Shown: in pieces, positions 54,061 to 63,083 of the stretch
How positions within the stretch are numbered: position 1 is the first letter of the stretch
Layout: each line of letters opens with the position of its first letter
Origin: Margaritifera margaritifera
Taxonomy: Eukaryota; Mollusca; Bivalvia; Unionida; Margaritiferidae
NCBI GenBank assembly: GCA_029931535.1
Contig: JAQPZY010001094.1
Coordinates: forward strand, 372,001 to 436,000
Length of the DNA: 64,000 bases
Direction: 5' to 3'
Program-made: the position numbers and the translations under genes
The notes under the pieces: model-generated
Seen by the model: the letters and a program-made list of their open reading frames with translations, nothing else
Told to the model about the DNA's origin: nothing
The model's database searches: none

Positions 54061-54522
54061 CCAGACAAAACTATTTGTATCCGTTCGTCACAGTCCATGC
54101 CTCTAAAAACTAATGGTTGATACACCAATTATGAAAGGAAGTTGGTCAACAATGACGGTAGCATGGTAATATTTTTCTCGGAGAAACCGAGCAGGAGGCA
54201 GAGGCAAGCACACAGAAGACTTGTTAATATTTGTATTCTTAAATGGATAAAATTGGGAAGGAACGGTAAAAAAGCGCCCATGCAATCCGGGTGTTAGCAC
54301 TGTTCTATAAACATTTGGAGGAAATAATTTATTTTTCCAAACATAAAACACACATACACATATAAAGGGATAGAGTAGGATATGTTGTTCATTGAAACAC
54401 TTAAATTCATGTATACAACAACTCACAATCACACTTACAAACAAATTGTTATGGCAGTAAAGGTGATATGCTCCTCTTGCAAACGAACACTCTTTCTTAC
54501 AAACTAACGTCCACAAGTAGTT

Positions 54523-54680
54523 AAGGGGGGGGGGGTACTGAGGTACAAAGGGGCCTCTATAGGTAAGTACGAGAGTTTAACGTGGTGGGGCCTTCTATAG
54601 GTACAAATGGGCCTCTATAGGTACAAAAGTGAAAAAATGTATAGGTACAGAGGGGGCTCTATTGGTACGTACGGGAATTT
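54523..54680. repeat. Degenerate CTCTATAGGTAC tandem repeat
   Basis: Five imperfect units around GGGCCTCTATAGGTACAAA at about 20-40-bp spacing, preceded by a run of 10-11 G. It lies directly outside the inverted repeat that starts the virus-like element and could be part of its terminus. Confidence 0.7.
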
Positions 54681-54690
54681 ATCATAGCGT

Positions 54691-54790
54691 CCGTATGTAG
54701 TGACGAAGACAACGTCCTCTGCCATCAAAAACTAGGTGGGGGGGGGGTGTTTTTGATAGTAGAGGACGTTGTCTTCGTCACTACATACGG
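54691..54790. repeat. Near-perfect 42-bp inverted repeat (hairpin)
   Basis: 54691-54720 is a perfect reverse complement of 54761-54790 (30 of 30). The arms extend inwards to 54732 and 54749 with two mismatches. The loop (54733-54748) is G-rich, and a poly-G run abuts the right arm. It may be the element's left terminus, a junction of two terminal inverted repeats, or a replication hairpin. Confidence 0.85.
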
Positions 54791-54842
54791 GGGGGGGGGG
54801 GGTTCGTGTGTGTAGGACATGGCAATGATGGAAAATAATTAA

Positions 54843-54877
54843 TCTTTCTTGTAAAATGGGTGGTCCTGATAAGGACC
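54843..54877 (-). terminator. Histone-type 3' processing signal (gene at 54893)
   Basis: On the minus strand, GGTCCT-TATC-AGGACC (54877-54862, perfect 6-bp stem, 4-nt loop) is followed directly by ACCCA (54861-54857), and 10 nt after the stem by CAAGAAAGA (54851-54843). This matches the replication-dependent histone mRNA 3' end: the SLBP stem-loop with ACCCA and a U7-type purine-rich downstream element. It lies 16 nt after the stop codon of the upstream minus-strand gene. No AATAAA is seen nearby. Confidence 0.8.
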
Positions 54878-54892
54878 GTTGGAGGAGGATTA

Positions 54893-55492
54893 TTATTTCC
54901 TCCAACATTGGGTGAAGAAACTTAGGAAGGTGGTGTGAGATCTTTTTTTCTTGGTTGGAAGTGTTGGTGGTAAAGAATCAGGTAGCCAGTCAGGATGTTT
55001 CATCCGCCTGAACTTATCCTGGATTTTCATCCAATTTAAATTCAGACGTTGGAATTCCTTTTCTTTCCTGGCCTGTTCTTTCTTGGATCGTTCAAGAGCC
55101 CACAAGATCTTAATGTGGGTTACTTCCTTTTCTAAAACTTTCTTTAACAATACCTTCACCATGTGAAGGTTCACCTCTTCGCGCCTGACGTTACTGGCGG
55201 GTGGATAAATATAACAATCTTCCTGAACTCGGTTCAGGAAGTACTCCACCTCATCCAGTAAATCCAGGCTCTTCTTGATGAACCCCACACGGCAAGGGGT
55301 TGAGGAAGTTTTTTGTCTTTCCTCCACCAAGACATCAGTCACCAACCTTCTCGCTGAAGTGAGAGCCGCTAGTTGGCTGGTGACGTATGGTTTGGTGGCA
55401 GGATATCTCCACCAATACTCCAACCTTTCCATCAAGGACTCCACCTCCACCATTCTATCCCAAGCTTCTTGTAACAATTCAACAGAGTTCAT
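54893..55492 (-). CDS. Helical protein of unknown function
   Basis: The ATG at 55492 (AAGAATGAAC) is chosen because a TATA box lies 52 nt upstream, leaving a short leader; this gives 199 codons. An in-frame TTG extension upstream is not needed. The protein is rich in predicted helices and Leu/Glu/Lys: SVELLQEAWDRMVEVESLME at the start, KKVLEKEVTHIKILWALERS and KKEQARKEKEFQRLNLNW in the second half, which looks like a coiled coil. The tail is basic and Ser/Thr-rich (LPTKKKRSH). No internal stop is present. No family is recognised; a structural or core-associated role is only a guess. Its transcript should end at a histone-type stem-loop 16 nt after the stop. Confidence 0.7.
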   Translation of the reverse strand: MNSVELLQEAWDRMVEVESLMERLEYWWRYPATKPYVTSQLAALTSARRLVTDVLVEERQKTSSTPCRVGFIKKSLDLLDEVEYFLNRVQEDCYIYPPASNVRREEVNLHMVKVLLKKVLEKEVTHIKILWALERSKKEQARKEKEFQRLNLNWMKIQDKFRRMKHPDWLPDSLPPTLPTKKKRSHTTFLSFFTQCWRK

Positions 55493-55536
55493 TCTTGTAG
55501 AGTGAAAGTGTGAATGGCGCAACTGTGGAAGGCACC

Positions 55537-55547
55537 GCTTTATATGC
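55537..55547 (-). promoter_or_regulatory. TATA box for the 55492 gene
   Basis: Minus strand GCATATAAAGC; TATAAAG begins 52 nt before the ATG, which places a likely start site about 20 nt before the ATG. Confidence 0.7.
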
Positions 55548-55723
55548 TAGAAGCGCGGACGTGATGGAAAACATCCCCCCTTTTTTCCCCAAAAAGAAAC
55601 CATACATAGAAACAAAACACACAACACACTATCCTTTTTTATATTTTTTTTTATATCAAACATACTCTATACAAGCATACTCACATTCATACAAAAATAT
55701 ATATAGCAATAATAGAAAATTAA

Positions 55724-55760
55724 TCTTTTCTTGAAAAATGGGTGGGCCCTTAAAAGGACC
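55724..55760 (-). terminator. Histone-type 3' processing signal (gene at 55784)
   Basis: Minus strand GGTCCT-TTTA-AGGGCC (55760-55745, 6-bp stem with one T-G pair), one C, then ACCCA (55743-55739), then CAAGAAAAGA (55733-55724) 11 nt after the stem. It lies 23 nt after the stop codon at 55784. Confidence 0.8.
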
Positions 55761-55783
55761 TTTTTTTTTTTTTTGCTATAATT

Positions 55784-56017
55784 TTAGCAATGACATCGTT
55801 TGTTAGGTCTTCTTCTTATTCTTCTACTTCTTCTTACTTCTTCCCCATATATCAGTACTCTTTTCAAACATCCTTGTCTTGCAATGTATATTCTTCTTTC
55901 CCAGTAGGCACTTTCATCAATTCTAGTGACTGCCCATGATGCTCTAACATACATGAGATATTCAGGATTGAAGAGCATTCCTGACACAATGCTTGAAGCT
56001 TCTACTGTAGTCCACAT
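55784..56017 (-). CDS. Small Arg-rich protein, unknown
   Basis: The frame is open from an ATG at 56092 (102 codons), but a perfect palindromic TATA element at 56070-56059 lies between that ATG and a second ATG at 56017. It is 51 nt from the second ATG, the same spacing as in neighbouring genes. I therefore prefer 56017, giving 77 residues starting MWTTVEASSIVSGMLFNPEY. The middle has aromatic and small residues (ASWAVTRIDESAYWERRIYI), and the C-terminus is very basic (RRSRRIRRRPNKRCHC), suggesting nucleic-acid binding. It does not resemble a core histone despite its histone-type 3' signal. Function unknown. Confidence 0.6.
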   Translation of the reverse strand: MWTTVEASSIVSGMLFNPEYLMYVRASWAVTRIDESAYWERRIYIARQGCLKRVLIYGEEVRRSRRIRRRPNKRCHC

Positions 56018-56058
56018 GATTCTTCTTTTTTTACGTAAAGCTTTATGAGACAAGTGGT

Positions 56059-56070
56059 GGTATATATACC
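56059..56070 (-). promoter_or_regulatory. TATA box for the small Arg-rich gene
   Basis: GGTATATATACC, palindromic, 51 nt before the ATG at 56017. Confidence 0.55.
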
Positions 56071-56180
56071 TTACGATAGGATTGAAATGCATCGAAATGA
56101 ACTACCAATCCCAATACGCGTTACAAGCGGGTCGGTTTTTCTTCCAATAGGAAGAGAGTAGGGGTATAACGTCATCTCGG

Positions 56181-56188
56181 GTATAAAG
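56181..56188 (+). promoter_or_regulatory. TATA box for the 56233 gene
   Basis: GTATAAAG; TATAAA begins 51 nt before the ATG. A CRE/AP-1-like ACGTCATC lies just upstream at about 56169-56176. Confidence 0.7.
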
Positions 56189-56232
56189 GTATCACAGCGT
56201 TCGTAGGGTTTATTACTTTTTCGACAACCTTC

Positions 56233-56862
56233 ATGGAGACCGGAAAGACAAGTATGTATTGGAGTGAGCCTTCAATGATTAATGCTGCTGTTTTGCTGAA
56301 CTTCCGGCCGGAAGACTTTGATTTAGATTTTCTAAATCAAAATTTTGAGTCTGAGACTACTACTACTACTACTACTGTTGTTGCTACACCAGTGATGGAT
56401 GAATTTAAAAAGAAACAACAGGAAGAGATGGAAATTCTTTTAAAGAAACAACGAGAGGATGAAGAAATGTTTCTTCTTCAGCAGCAGAAAGAAGAAGAAG
56501 AAGAGAGAAAAAGAAAAAGTGAGGAAGAAATCAGACAATAGTTAGAAGAGGAGGAGGAGAAGGAAACAGCAAAAGAAGGCGTCAGTCCTGGAGAAAAATC
56601 GGTGAGTCTTTTAGAAGAGATATTATATGAGTTAAAATGGTTGACAAACGCATATAAGTATTCTTTAACTCAGCCAAAGCGAAAAAGGCCATCACGAGCT
56701 AAACATTCCAAATCTACAACTTCTAGTGAGATGCCACCACCAACACCACCACTTCCACCAGTGACTACCACCATGAGCAAAACACCAGCAGTAGCAGCAG
56801 CATTAGCAGGATTTGGATTGGGTCGTGGTAAAGGACTACGACAATTGAAGTTGATTATGTAA
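56233..56862 (+). pseudogene. Charged coiled-coil protein with internal stop
   Basis: One reading frame of 210 codons from ATG 56233 to TAA 56860-56862, interrupted by a single TAG at 56539-56541. Residues 1-40 are mixed, then a short Thr tract, then a long Glu/Lys/Gln-rich coiled coil (KKKQQEEMEILLKKQREDEE) running up to and past the stop. After it comes a helix EEILYELKWLTNAYKYSL, a probable nuclear signal PKRKRPSRAKH, a Pro-rich linker and a Gly-rich end GFGLGRGKGLRQL. Coding character is uniform on both sides of the stop, so it is either a recent nonsense change or a readthrough site. A likely relative is the old gene at 15532-15810. Function unknown. Confidence 0.65.
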
Positions 56863-56912
56863 AAACTTCATAAGTTTGTTTTTAACAACAAGATAAAAAC
56901 AAACACCCCAAC

Positions 56913-56950
56913 GGTCCTTTTAAGGGCCACCCAGATTTCTAGAAAAGAAA
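56913..56950 (+). terminator. Histone-type 3' processing signal (gene at 56233)
   Basis: GGTCCT-TTTA-AGGGCC (56913-56928), ACCCA (56929-56933) and the purine-rich AGAAAAGAAA (56941-56950) 12 nt after the stem. The preceding CCAAC also matches the base context usual before histone stems. It lies 50 nt after the stop codon. Confidence 0.8.
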
Positions 56951-57172
56951 TCAAATTGCCAAAAAATCAAGTAAAACTTAAAAAATCCCATTGTGTTGTA
57001 TATAAGTGTGAGTGTGTGCGTGCGTGCATCTATACTCTAAAACAAAATAACACAAAATCACTTACTTTTTTTCCAGTCTGGTGTATTCTGCCAAATTTTT
57101 TACAAAAATAATTCACCAATAACATATAACACCACACTTCAAAAAAAAAAAAAAAAAAGTTCCTTTGTTTTT
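56951..57172. other. Spacer between two convergent genes
   Basis: Contains a poly-A run at 57139-57158 and the 3' flank of the minus-strand zinc-knuckle gene. No histone-type signal and no AATAAA were seen for that gene. Confidence 0.5.
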
Positions 57173-57801: not shown

Positions 57802-60800
57802 ATGAAAAGATCACGCCCAAACCATGAGAAACCAGAAGAAGAACAAGAAGAAACAAAGAAGCCACGACGACGAAGGCATTCCGTGCCACCTGAAACATCA
57901 TTAGATGAACTACTAGCTCAAGTCCATGCAAGTGACTTCGAAGAGGAGATGAGTGAACCTGAAACTTTACCACCTTCAAAACCACCCAAAATAAAATCCA
58001 CCACTACCAACACCAGAACCCCAGACCAAGAAACACAATCTAGTACCTTGGCTTCTCCTGAAAATTATTATCGGATTCGAGAGACTCAAAAAATTACCTC
58101 TCGAAAATTTAGAACCCCTGCCTACACTCACACGGTTCACTTCAAAGACTTCAAGTCCGAAGTACCTCCCGAAAAAACGGTGGGGTTCATTACCGATTTG
58201 TGGGGTTCTGTGTTACAGAACTTGAAACGGCAATGTGGAGCCAAAGAAGATGATCGCTTGAGACTGTCTATTCATCACGACAACTTGAAGAGTCCCGTTT
58301 GGATTGAGTTCAGCACCCCGGCAGAATTAACGCCAGACAAAGTTATGTCTAAAATAGAACATGTGCAACAATCCAATGACAAGTTTACCATCAACGATGG
58401 AAAGGCGACACTCTACATGACTCACGTTGCTCCACCTCGAGGAAGTGGACGAAGCAGAAAACCGTTATTGGTGGACGATCTTCTTACTACCAAACGTAGT
58501 GTCGTCCAAATCGACAATACCCAAGACCAGATGTGTTTAGCTGGAGCTATTGTGGTGGGGCGTACGTTTGCCAACAAGAACGAGAGCAAAGAATGGAAAA
58601 AAGCCTGGGAGAGCATTCGACGATCGCAAAGACCCCAACAACGAAAAGAAGCAGAACTCCTGTTGCAACAAGCGGGGATCCCTAAAGAGACCGTGTGTGG
58701 CATTTCTCAAATGCAGCAACTTCAAGATGTTTTGGCTCCTCATTATACTTTGAAAGTTCACCCTCAAGAAGTGCGCGGAGATATGGTGTTTCGAGGCCCC
58801 GATTTCCCTGAAGGAAAATACATTCACCTCTATTACCATCAAGAACATTTTGATACCATCACTAGTATTACCGGATTTTTGGGATACTCTTACTACTGTG
58901 AGAAATGCAACCAAGGGTTTAATAGTCGAGAGAAACACATTCATTGCGGAGCAAGATGTAGGGGCTGTTTAGCGGACAAGCCATGCCTTCCTGAACAACA
59001 ACAACACCACGTTCATTGTGAAACGTGTCGACGAAGTTTTTTCAGTCCTTCTTGTTACGAACAGCATCGCAAGACACAAGGGCACCAACAAAAATGTGCT
59101 TGCGAGTTATTGAAATCGTGTTCTACGTGTGGACATCTAATTCGAACCAACAATACCAAGAGGCACGTTTGTGCTGGCAAGAAAAAATGTTCTATTTGTC
59201 AGCAGATCGTCGATTTTGATCATCGATGTTTTATTCAAAAGTTTGACAAGACAGAGAAGAAAGAAATAAAGAAGAACAAGGGACCAAGTAGATTTCATCT
59301 TCTTTGATTTTGAATGTATGCAAGAAACAGGTATTCACATTCCTAATTTTTGTGTGGCGCATCGGGCTTGTGATCAGTGCATTCAAGAATCGATTCATTT
59401 TCACAGTCCTCATTGTAGTCGAATTCCAGGAGGACGTGAAAAAATCTTTCGTGGAGTTAACACTTTGTCTGAGTTTGCTGAATGGGTTTTCGACCCTACC
59501 ACCCACGACAGTTGGAGCGAAGACGACATTCAACGTTACGGAGATTGTCATCGGTATGCCACCGTCATAGCTCACAATTTTTCGGGATACGATGGGCAGC
59601 TTTTACTCAATTATTATTTGAACCATGGCACCGAACGTCCTGAAGTCACCATGAACGGAAAAAAGCTCATCTACATGAAAGTAGGACAAGTACAGTTTAA
59701 AGATTCTATGAGTTATTTAGCCATGCCTTTGAGTCGCATGCCAAAAACGTTTGGCATGACAGAAATGGCTAAAGGCTACTTTCCTCACTTCTTCAACACG
59801 GAAGCTAATCAACATGCTGTCCTACCTCATTTGCCTGACCTTCATGATTACGACCCCGACGGAATGCGCCCCGAACAGCGAGAAGCTTTTCACTCTTGGT
59901 ACTGCGCTCACCAGACCGATCCATTTGACTTTCAAGAAGAGATGTTGAAGTATTGTCGATCTGATGTGGATATTTTAAGACGTTGTTGTGGAAAGTTTCG
60001 AGAGTTATTTCTCGATCACGGAGAGGTCGATCCTTTGAAAGGTGCAGCCACCTTGCCTAAAGCCTGTTCCTTAGTCTACAGGCAAAATTTCATGCCTGAG
60101 AACCAACTCGCCATCATCGACTCCAACACGTCTCTCTTTGCTAGTCGTCAATATTCGGTCAAATCTTTACGTTGCTTTCATTACTTGTGTGAAAAAGAAG
60201 ACAAATGGATACAACATGCTAGAAACGGAGGAGGAGAAAAGAAGATTGGAGGTTATTCCGTGGATGGATTTGATTTAGAAAACCCGCACACGGTATACGA
60301 GTTTCAGGGTTGTTTGTTTCATGGATGCCCAACTTGTTATCCTGATCGAGAGATGAAAGGCCCTTATTCAGATTCTACCATGGAACAGTTATACGAACAG
60401 ACTTGCCAACGACGCCTCAAGTTAGAAAGTCAAGGATACCAAGTGGTAGAAATGTGGGAGCACGAGTACGATCGACGTTTGAAAACCGATCCTGAATTTA
60501 AGAACATTACTCAAAGTTACGACGCGGTCGAAATCGAACCTTTTGATCCGCGCCACAGTTTATTTGGAGGACGAACCAATGCCACTCGCTTGCTGTACGA
60601 CGTGAATGAATCCCAAGGAGAAGAAATCAAATACATCGACGTGTGTTCTTTGTATCCTTGGGTGTGCAAATATGCTCGTTTTCCCACCGGTCACCCTGAA
60701 ATTTTGACAGAACACATTGACGTGGAACACATTCGTCAATACGAAGGATTAATTAAATGTAAAGTCTTACCTCCTACCAACTTATACCATCCCATCTTCC

Positions 60801-61984
60801 CTCACCATTGTCAAGGAAAACTGATGTTTCCTTTATGCCGTACGTGTGCCGAAACGTGCAACAAAGATCATCCCTGTCACCACACGAAGGAATAACGGTC
60901 TTTGACAGGAACGTGGGTTAGCGCCGAATTGTTTCGGGTACTGGATCGTGGATACCATTTGTTGAAAGTGTACGAAATCTGGCACTTTCCAACTACAGCC
61001 CAATACCAAAAGGGCTACGCCACCAATCATCCAGGCATTTTCTCGGGGTACGTCAATCAGTTTTTAAAACTGATACAAGTAGCTAGTGGTTATCTTTCGT
61101 GGTGTCAGACTCCCGAAGACCAAGAACGATTCAAAGAAGAGTACCGTGACATCGAAGGCATCACTTTGGAAGAGGTTGAAAAAAATGAAGGAAAAAGATC
61201 GTTTGCCAAAGTGATGCTCAATTGCTTGTGGGGAAAAATGGCTCAACGTACGATCTTACCCAAAACGGAATACGTCACCGATCCTTATCGTTACTTTCAA
61301 CTAGTGGACGACAAAAGTATACTAGTCAAACACGTCGAAATCGTCCGCGATGATTTGATCATAGTCAATTTCGAAGAAGAACCCAAGTTTGTCAAACCTG
61401 ACAAGTTTAGCAACGTAGTCATTGCCGCTTACGTGACCGCTCATGCTCGTTTGAAATTGTACGACGAAGCGTTAGAAGTCTTGGGAGATCGTGTCCTGTA
61501 CTTTGATACCGACAGTTGCATCTACATTCATCGACCCGGTTGCCCCCACCCTACCATTCAAGGCGATCGTTTAGGAGCCTGGACAGACGAGCACCCTCAA
61601 GACACCATTCTGAGTTTTGCCAGTGGTGGCCCTAAAAATTATGGGTACCGATACTGAGACCCACAAGGTCAACTTCACACCTCCTGTAAAGTCAAAGGCT
61701 TGACTCTCAACTATCGAACTAACCAAGTGGTGAACTTTGAGGTTTTAAAAAATGCTTTACTGTCTGGACCAGTGGAAGACTTTCGAGTACCCACGTTAGA
61801 ACCTCACAAGATTGTACGACTACCTAATCATCAAATCGTTACTCGACCTGTACAAAAAGTGTACCGCATCGTGTATCAAAAACGAGTGAGACTTCCAGAT
61901 CACACCACTTTGCCTTACGGACACGCTGATTTGGAGTATAAAAAAGGAAACCCTCTTGAACAGAAAAAAAAATACAACACCAAG
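57802..61984 (+). pseudogene. Polinton/adintovirus-type family B DNA polymerase (broken)
   Basis: The replicative, protein-primed-type DNA polymerase of the element. From ATG 57802, 54 nt after a TATA box: a charged N-terminus with nuclear signal KKPRRRR, then a Cys/His-rich zinc region (codons ~364-476, YYCEKCNQGF... to CSICQQ). Next come exonuclease motifs: DFE at 59306-59314, HNFSGYD at ~59573, YCRSDVDIL at ~59951. A conserved FHGCPTCYP lies near 60320. Polymerase motifs are A (DVCSLYP, ~60638), B (KVMLNCLWGK, ~61208) and C (YFDTDS, ~61499), followed by GGPKNYGY at ~61625. All catalytic residues are present. Three breaks interrupt it: a one-base frame change near 59296 (old frame stops at 59305-59307), TAA at 60893-60895 and TGA at 61655-61657. 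The frame then runs without a stop into the BIR gene at 61985. Confidence 0.9.
61937..61947 (+). promoter_or_regulatory. TATA box for the first BIR gene
   Basis: TATAAAAAAGG inside the polymerase 3' end, 48 nt before the ATG at 61985. The following bases (AAACCC) are also shared with the promoter of the second BIR gene. Confidence 0.65.
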
Positions 61985-62377
61985 ATGACTTCAACATTGG
62001 CCTTGCCTGACTATTGTGAGTGTACCAGTCGCTTGAAGACGTTCAAAAATTGGCCTAAACACATGCCTGACTATTGTTATTGTCCTCATCGATGGAGCAC
62101 ATTCAAAAAAGGAAAAAATGGATTACCTACTTCCCACTCTTTAGCCAGAGCAGGATTTGTTTACTTTGGACAGGGAACCAAAGTACAGTGTTTTAGTTGT
62201 GGTGTCACTATTCGTATGGATTGTAAGAATTCAGCTTTCCTGGAACATGTCAGATGGTCACCAAACTGTGCTTACCTTTCTTTAACGTTTCCACGGATCA
62301 CATTACAATACTTTTCGGATGGTACAGTCGACAGGTATAAAAAAGGAACCCCTTCCAAGCCTAACCCTTCATTCTGA
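61985..62377 (+). CDS. BIR-domain protein 1 (IAP-like)
   Basis: ATG 61985 (CCAAGATGAC) gives 130 codons, although the frame is open upstream into the polymerase. It has one BIR domain: an N-terminal helix RLKTFKNWPK, LARAGFVYFGQGTKVQCFSC, and zinc ligands Cys69, Cys72, His88 and Cys95 (CFSC...FLEHVRWSPNC). BIR domains of inhibitor-of-apoptosis proteins bind caspases or IBM peptides, and viral copies commonly block host cell death. This one departs from the usual pattern: the stretch between CxxC and His is one residue short and lacks the conserved Gly/Trp, so peptide binding may be altered. The first 40 residues contain a doubled PDYC-C motif, apparently an internal duplication. No RING domain. 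Specific target unknown. Confidence 0.75.
   Translation: MTSTLALPDYCECTSRLKTFKNWPKHMPDYCYCPHRWSTFKKGKNGLPTSHSLARAGFVYFGQGTKVQCFSCGVTIRMDCKNSAFLEHVRWSPNCAYLSLTFPRITLQYFSDGTVDRYKKGTPSKPNPSF
62336..62346 (+). promoter_or_regulatory. TATA box for the second BIR gene
   Basis: TATAAAAAAGG within the end of BIR gene 1, 67 nt before the ATG at 62403; near-identical to the element at 61937. Confidence 0.6.
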
Positions 62378-62402
62378 CTTTCAACTTTGACCAAGCAAGA
62401 AG

Positions 62403-63083
62403 ATGAGTCATTTTGTTATCCTTCCACATAACTACAATAAGAGTACTCAAACTACCACCCACCCGTCACCATTACCAAGAGAGAAATCTAGTGTTGGTGG
62501 TGGTGGTGTGAACTCCAAGTGCCATCATCACGACTTGGAGTGTGATGCAGTACCATGCGATGAGACGGATTCCGTACGGTTTGGCATCCCCGATTCACAC
62601 GTTCAAACGGATTCCGTATGTTGTAACATCTTGGATTCAGGGCCCTCTGGAAGTCTCACTCATCGACAACCCTCTAAAGAGGCAGTACGCCCTTTTTGCT
62701 TTAGTGGAAATACTAAAGGAACCTGTATTGACCATAACGACAACAAGGGAATAGGTATTGGTCAATATTCGCATGTCAGAATACCTGTGACTTTACCTGG
62801 TTATTCCAAGTATGACAGTCGACTCGAGTCATTCAAAGACAAGTGGCCAAAATATCTACAAGGACCTAAACCCGAAGCTTTAGCCAGATCTGGATTTAAA
62901 TACGTGGGAGAAGGAGATAAAGTTCAATGTTTCAGTTGTGGTGTGAAACTTCACCAATGGGAGCCTACCGACTCAGCTTACATTGAACATGCCAGATGGT
63001 CTCCGCACTGTCAGTTCTTACCTTTAGTGGCCTTAGAAGAGTACAGGTACGATGAGCCAGATGCCAAACAGAAGAAGAAATAG
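62403..63083 (+). CDS. BIR-domain protein 2 (IAP-like)
   Basis: ATG 62403 (AGAAGATGAG), 226 codons, intact. The N-terminal ~120 residues are low-complexity with Thr/Pro, Gly and Cys/His clusters and a duplicated TDSV(R/C)..I.DS motif. The BIR domain occupies about 138-206: DSRLESFKDKW, ALARSGFKYVGEGDKVQCF, with zinc ligands Cys176, Cys179, His196 and Cys203 and the canonical Trp-Glu-Pro before the His. It is the better-conserved of two tandem BIR genes and the likelier functional inhibitor of apoptosis. No RING domain follows; the tail is basic (KQKKK). Duplicate of the gene at 61985, including its promoter. Confidence 0.8.
   Translation: MSHFVILPHNYNKSTQTTTHPSPLPREKSSVGGGGVNSKCHHHDLECDAVPCDETDSVRFGIPDSHVQTDSVCCNILDSGPSGSLTHRQPSKEAVRPFCFSGNTKGTCIDHNDNKGIGIGQYSHVRIPVTLPGYSKYDSRLESFKDKWPKYLQGPKPEALARSGFKYVGEGDKVQCFSCGVKLHQWEPTDSAYIEHARWSPHCQFLPLVALEEYRYDEPDAKQKKK

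Follow-up and report, generated by a model that had tools for sequence, protein, structure and literature searches.

Five small genes of a mobile element end in histone-type signals

The DNA stretch studied here, 64,000 nucleotides from Margaritifera margaritifera (contig JAQPZY010001094.1; "the window"), contains from position 54515 onwards the left part of a virus-like mobile element, which measures 20.8 kb between its outer ends (BLASTN of both ends) and extends beyond the right edge of the window. A histone-type 3' end is present in five of its small genes (A–E): genes A and B are read leftward, gene C rightward, and genes E and D are located at the right end. Together with a promoter element that three of them share with host histone genes, these 3' ends suggest that the five genes very probably make use of the histone machinery of the host.

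Gene A (54893..55492, minus strand, 199 aa) is an open reading frame (ORF) with no Pfam or PHROG match and no relative found in the protein database search; gene B (55784..56092, minus strand, 102 aa) has no Pfam match either, the Pfam search of accessory genes having covered these two. Gene C (56233..56862, plus strand) is broken by an in-frame TAG in this copy and intact in other copies of the genome, and 17 relatives with 35–46% identity, located on short contigs, were found in the protein database. Gene E (L032:547-981) carries an in-frame stop in this copy as well. No match to a core histone was found in the element at E-values up to 1. Proteins of the gene E family have an AT-hook-like KRGRP stretch close to the end, and six of the eight compared (of nine) contain an IxCxE word, the cysteine not being present in all; a putative likeness to pRb-binding motifs is not used as support.

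The original prediction placed stem-loops downstream of the stops at 54893 and 55784 (minus strand) and 56862 (plus strand), each on the coding strand, and they are present as stated: stems of 6 bp with 4-nt loops are found at 54862-54877 (minus), 55745-55760 (minus) and 56913-56928 (plus), at 15, 23 and 50 nt from the stop codons of A, B and C, respectively. Position 56862 is indeed the gene C stop, although the frame that it closes is the one broken by TAG. The full signal of gene A (54837..54882, minus strand) consists of CCAAC, the stem and loop, ACCCA and a purine block, and has a score of 37.6 bits with the Rfam model Histone3 (RF00032; gathering score 34 bits). The signals of gene B (55719..55765, minus strand) and gene C (56908..56952, plus strand) have scores of 27.6 and 33.4 bits, respectively, that is, site A is above the gathering score, site C just below and site B below it; the E-values in a 14-kb search were 4.9e-8 (A), 2.5e-4 (B) and 1.7e-6 (C). 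The ACCCA said to follow each stem does so at sites A and C, with one extra C preceding it at site B, and the predicted purine block exists at all three sites, reading CTAGAAAAGA rather than CAAGAAAGA at site C.

The bare stem pattern occurs three times in the window, compared with a mean of 0.01 in 100 dinucleotide shuffles, none of which reaches three, and a motif scan of the window found no site besides A, B and C. Two more sites, E (L032:1009) and D (L032:1988, one stem pair lost), lie to the right of the window. In folding of single sequences, only sites A (z = -3.3) and C (-3.6) were clearly better than shuffles, the values being -0.9, -1.1 and -1.1 for B, E and D, respectively.

The absence of AATAAA near the window sites, also claimed originally, holds: neither AATAAA nor ATTAAA occurs on the minus strand past sites A and B inside the element, and the first one on the plus strand after site C is at 57990. 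At site E, AATAAA is found about 170 nt beyond the stem. The gene to the left of E, the end of which was placed near L032:232 by sequence reading, has ATTAAA at 286. No histone-type 3' end was found in the core replication region (57802..61657) or with the BIR-domain ORFs (61985..63083), the polymerase gene not being among the signal-bearing genes, and 9 kb with the ATPase, integrase-like and capsid-like genes (L031) contain neither a 3'-end site nor the promoter pattern described below.

The signals recur behind the same genes in other copies

A search of the 2.45-Gb host assembly with RF00032, in which 75 of 508,685 candidates were scored, yielded at least 75 matches above the gathering score, and the surroundings of 48 of these 75 (L001-L030 and L033-L050) were read. 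When the three proteins from the window were used as queries, homologs of genes A–C were found in 28 of the first 30 loci and in 17 of the other 18; with 16 representatives of A–E as queries, all 48 loci contained a homolog at E 1e-4. A core histone gene was found in none of the 48 at E 1e-5.

A scan of these loci and of the studied element itself, requiring at least five of the six stem pairs, produced 119 sites, one of which (L011:2337) was dropped as false. The remaining 118 are spread over 50 of the 51 sources scanned, L031 being the exception, and 116 of them are on the sense strand behind the end of an A–E gene (A, 35; B, 32; C, 25; D, 14; E, 10), the other two being L035:2507 and L010:2449, the latter following a gene E frame. 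Since the loci had been chosen by the motif, gene ends were located by protein similarity: when the match leading to each locus was set aside, the strict scan found a site at 64 of 67 gene ends, and the three misses still show the motif, two with an altered stem and one near the locus edge.

The PolB gene, with at least 82 copies at 95% identity or more (82 scored of 12,798 candidates), served for a motif-independent sample of four of the 82 listed copies (ranks 8, 26, 44 and 62). Three of the four slices contain A–C genes, and all eight gene ends inside the slices carry the sense-strand signal in a looser scan (at least four of six pairs), one site having lost a stem pair and one having CCCA for ACCCA; the gene C end of L100 is outside its slice. 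The promoter element is present upstream of all three A genes of this sample. The fourth slice (L102) has neither the genes nor the signal.

The mean information content of the 118 sites is 1.38 bits per column at positions -5 to +52 versus 0.20 before and 0.10 after, the conserved block running from CCAAC to the purine element; this contrast is partly built in, because the sites came from a motif scan, and the gene-end control is fairer. Every letter of the purine block AGAAAAGA, at +28 to +35, is found in at least 94% of the sites. Within gene families, mean identity is 88–93% for the stem with ACCCA and 80–90% for the purine block, as opposed to 30–44% for the downstream 50 nt, a difference exaggerated by indels because the comparison was ungapped. 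At the gene A sites, the stem with ACCCA has a mean identity of 91%, and the gene A proteins diverge to 31% identity (18 of 29 compared). The stems themselves vary (GGCTCT, GGCCCT, GGTCCT), with C-G, T-G and T-A at pairs 3 and 4; pair 3 is standard in all 118 sites (shuffled mean 112, maximum 118) and pair 4 in 106 (shuffled mean 94, maximum 103).

Host histone genes share the 3' signal and, in part, the promoter element

The host histone cluster has a repeat of about 8 kb with H3, H4, H2B, H2A and H1, each followed by a stem-loop and a purine block in the arrangement predicted for the element. RF00032 scores are 36.1–36.9 bits for host H3, H4 and H2B and range from 27.6 to 45.8 for the element sites. 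With the replication-dependent histone 3' end described by RF00032 the element sites have in common the 6-bp stem, the 4-nt loop, the preceding CCAA, the ensuing ACC and the purine block; they differ from it in following mobile-element genes that are not histone genes, in their varied stems and in ACCCA. A TGCC(A/G) word, for which we know of no name, was read after the purine block, about 30–40 nt past the stem, in 13 of the 16 histone genes of the host (L051, L056 and L057-L067) and stands behind 87 of the 118 element sites, compared with 3.4 in mononucleotide shuffles; it may represent an additional component of the 3'-end signal of histone genes in the animal.

Upstream of gene A (55551..55573, minus strand) there is a 23-bp element, TGTTTTCCATCACGTCCGCGCTT, identical to the one upstream of host H2B, with a TATA box downstream of it at 55544. 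The pattern TGTTTTC(C/A)ATCACGTCCGCG is shared by the mobile element and host H2B, H1 and H2A. Counted in element copies as a 20-bp core with up to three mismatches, the promoter element precedes gene A in 29 of 35 cases, D in 14 of 14 and E in four of six, and it does not occur in the host part of the window; of these 47 cases, 46 have a TATA box behind the promoter element. Among the ten host H2B genes examined, three have the core with no mismatches and one has it with a single mismatch, and the one H1 gene and the one H2A gene examined (the latter inverted) also have it with one mismatch. The TATA box is downstream in H2B as it is in A, D and E, the promoter motif being nearer to it in the mobile element than in H2B, and genes B and C differ in using another promoter. 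This divergent promoter of B and C (56093..56232) has CCAAT boxes, a TGACGTCAT-like site and a TATA box without the 20-bp element, and is conserved across the alignment of 29 copies.

An untargeted BLASTN comparison of the element (first 9.5 kb) with 13 host histone loci had the promoter and the 3'-end signals as top matches; other matches were short, and those inspected were A- or GAG-rich. Weak protein matches of two gene C queries to host histone loci (E 0.001–0.002, 10–33 residues) were taken for chance or low complexity. Several contigs of the host carry histone-like frames that contain stop codons and are repeated in tandem with a period of about 1.74 kb (e.g., G000:C668:580797-595042).

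Gene content and classification of the element

The element is bounded by terminal inverted repeats found by BLASTN, a left one of 369 bp (54515..54883), the inner edge of which includes the stem-loop and the purine block of gene A, and a right one (L032:1982-2342) with 95% identity to it; sites A and D thus form the inner edges of the two repeats. The left repeat also contains a long hairpin (54702-54779) with a counterpart in the right one.

The core replication region (57802..61657, plus strand) is composed of ORFs 57802-59307, 59318-60895 and 61214-61657, located in separate frames in this copy; the second contains the viral-type PolB domain (PF03175), which matches the element with E 1.6e-28. 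Downstream of it, two ORFs (61985..63083, plus strand) encode BIR domains of the inhibitor of apoptosis type according to Pfam. The packaging ATPase is similar to poxvirus A32 (Pox_A32, 33.6 bits, cut-off 22.8), and a weak rve match in a short frame of this copy (L031:3665-3982, 13.7 bits, below the cut-off of 32.6) may mark a retrovirus-like integrase. The capsid-like protein (L031:6708-8072), a candidate double jelly-roll major capsid protein, has no Pfam or PHROG profile match and 1860 database relatives, some of them from bivalve genomes.

Because of PolB, the BIR proteins, the Pox_A32-like ATPase, the weak integrase match, the capsid-like protein and the inverted repeats, the element is classified, from its sequence, as a multicopy element of the Polinton/adintovirus type. 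Such elements are about 15–25 kb long. PolB, the A32-like ATPase, the capsid-like protein family that is also found in bivalve genomes, the long inverted repeats and the length of about 21 kb agree with Polinton/Maverick elements and adintoviruses, the difference being the histone-type signals of the accessory genes A–E. The copy studied here is decayed, as stop codons interrupt the frames of genes C and E and the polymerase region is distributed over different frames.

Searches of an open-access library, judged by titles and abstract beginnings, found no description of Polintons or adintoviruses with histone-type ends or promoters. For adomaviruses, histone-like 'Histoid' proteins have been named, which are not RNA ends (PMC11071296).

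Proposed use of the histone machinery by genes A–E

The cis-signals make it highly probable that the accessory genes A–E run on the 3'-end machinery of host histone genes and that A, D and E run also on the histone promoter element. The proposal of cleavage by the histone machinery, put forward in the original prediction, gains strong independent support from the many copies, the arrangement in host histone genes and the promoter element of three genes. In histone genes, SLBP binds the stem-loop and the U7 small nuclear ribonucleoprotein (snRNP) binds the purine block; in the pre-mRNAs of A–E, the former would likewise bind the stem-loop and the latter the purine block, and a cut directly after ACCCA would yield mRNAs without poly(A). 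The major cut in histone pre-mRNA is placed 5 nt past the stem (PMC6303110). Genes A, D and E would be transcribed from the promoter element common to host H2B, H1 and H2A, and the whole set would be tied to the histone program of the host and hence, most likely, to S phase. The RNA processing, the lack of poly(A) and the timing are what we infer from the signals. An element replicating its own DNA would gain from such timing; because the polymerase gene itself has no signals, the benefit would sit in what A–E do.

We lean, with less assurance, towards a further-reaching proposal, namely that the virus lineage possesses an accessory regulon counterfeiting histone genes, in which the promoter and the 3' end match those of the host and the five proteins would be made in S phase only, from poly(A)-free mRNAs that possibly arise at the histone locus body.

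Several observations weigh against the use of the histone machinery by A–E. The 48 loci were selected by their RF00032 score, the motif-independent sample consists of four copies only, and in a control of 14 genomes RF00032 matched one bacterium, with a score below the cut-off. The covariation of the stem is modest under a scan that demanded five of six pairs. The promoter element was found upstream of none of the 27 B and 29 C genes, nor was the 20-bp core found in six of the ten host H2B genes, the three H3 genes and the one H4 gene examined. Host stems are mostly followed by ACACA or ATACA, not ACCCA, which argues against a recent origin of the signals by copying of the 3' ends that host histone genes have today. 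The timing in S phase is probable from established knowledge of histone genes. The RF00066 model of U7 small nuclear RNA had no match in the host and none in the controls either, and a pattern search for U7 gave 84 matches as compared with 56 in the reversed control.

One U7 candidate with a sequence similar to a U7 5' end and Sm site (L073-L080) was rejected as a host repeat, having near-identical flanks in all eight copies read and no Rfam match; 18 further candidates and the five loci of the first matches showed no convincing 3' hairpin.

Distribution belongs to the same side of the balance. The search in related elements envisaged in the original prediction had a divided outcome: the motif is present across the copies in the host genome, and four distant relatives have no RF00032 match at E-values up to 0.5. 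These relatives are contigs filed under bacterial metagenome-assembled genomes, with a capsid-like protein 27–42% identical to that of the element; three are shorter than 12 kb and probably partial, and two come from symbiont genomes (tubeworm and mussel). The four contigs are probably of animal origin. Because these four lack the motif, the signal is not general to such elements, and the histone-type trait seems to be confined to a lineage or, at any rate, not to be shared by all of them. Searches of the viral_contigs collection with PolB, the capsid-like protein (single sequence and alignment), the gene C alignment and the motif gave no match, the collection being unfit to test the distribution. 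Directly after the capsid-like gene of a contig from a mussel-symbiont assembly, a sequence (L053:11734-11798) resembles the twister-P1 ribozyme weakly (28.9 bits, below the cut-off of 67.2).

Among the alternatives, the one closest to our interpretation accepts cleavage by the histone machinery and sees the use of the poly(A)-free end not in coupling to S phase but in another advantage, for example greater stability, export, or escape from silencing that depends on poly(A). Genes B and C, which keep the 3' signal without the promoter element, are in line with it; on the other hand, A, D and E share their promoter element with H2B, H1 and H2A, and the promoter of B and C contains CCAAT boxes as well as a TGACGTCAT-like site that is conserved, so we consider this explanation unlikely. 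It is far less probable that the sites are signals acting at the DNA level in replication, packaging or integration of the element, their likeness to a histone 3' end being superficial: in this copy, the inner edges of the terminal inverted repeats do hold two of the five sites, but the other three are internal, 116 of the 118 sites stand behind a gene on the sense strand, and host histone genes share the stem, the purine block and the downstream word, with H2B, H1 and H2A sharing the promoter element in addition.

We regard as equally improbable that the element formerly captured histone genes, of which the signals would be remnants without a function. The likeness spanning both the promoter and the 3' end would fit such an origin, yet five gene families bear the 3' end, which is conserved while flanks and proteins diverge. 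Capture together with a histone gene, named in the original prediction as an explanation that would overturn it, is not supported, because neither the element nor any of the 48 loci was found to contain a core histone gene. A histone gene may nevertheless have been the ancient source of the signals.

If genes A–E do run on the histone machinery, their transcripts would be non-histone protein-coding mRNAs of an animal with a histone stem-loop end, and the element would represent a new way for viral genes to couple to S phase. The varied sites would provide RNA biology with natural variants of the SLBP and U7 substrate, and annotation based on poly(A) RNA could overlook such genes.

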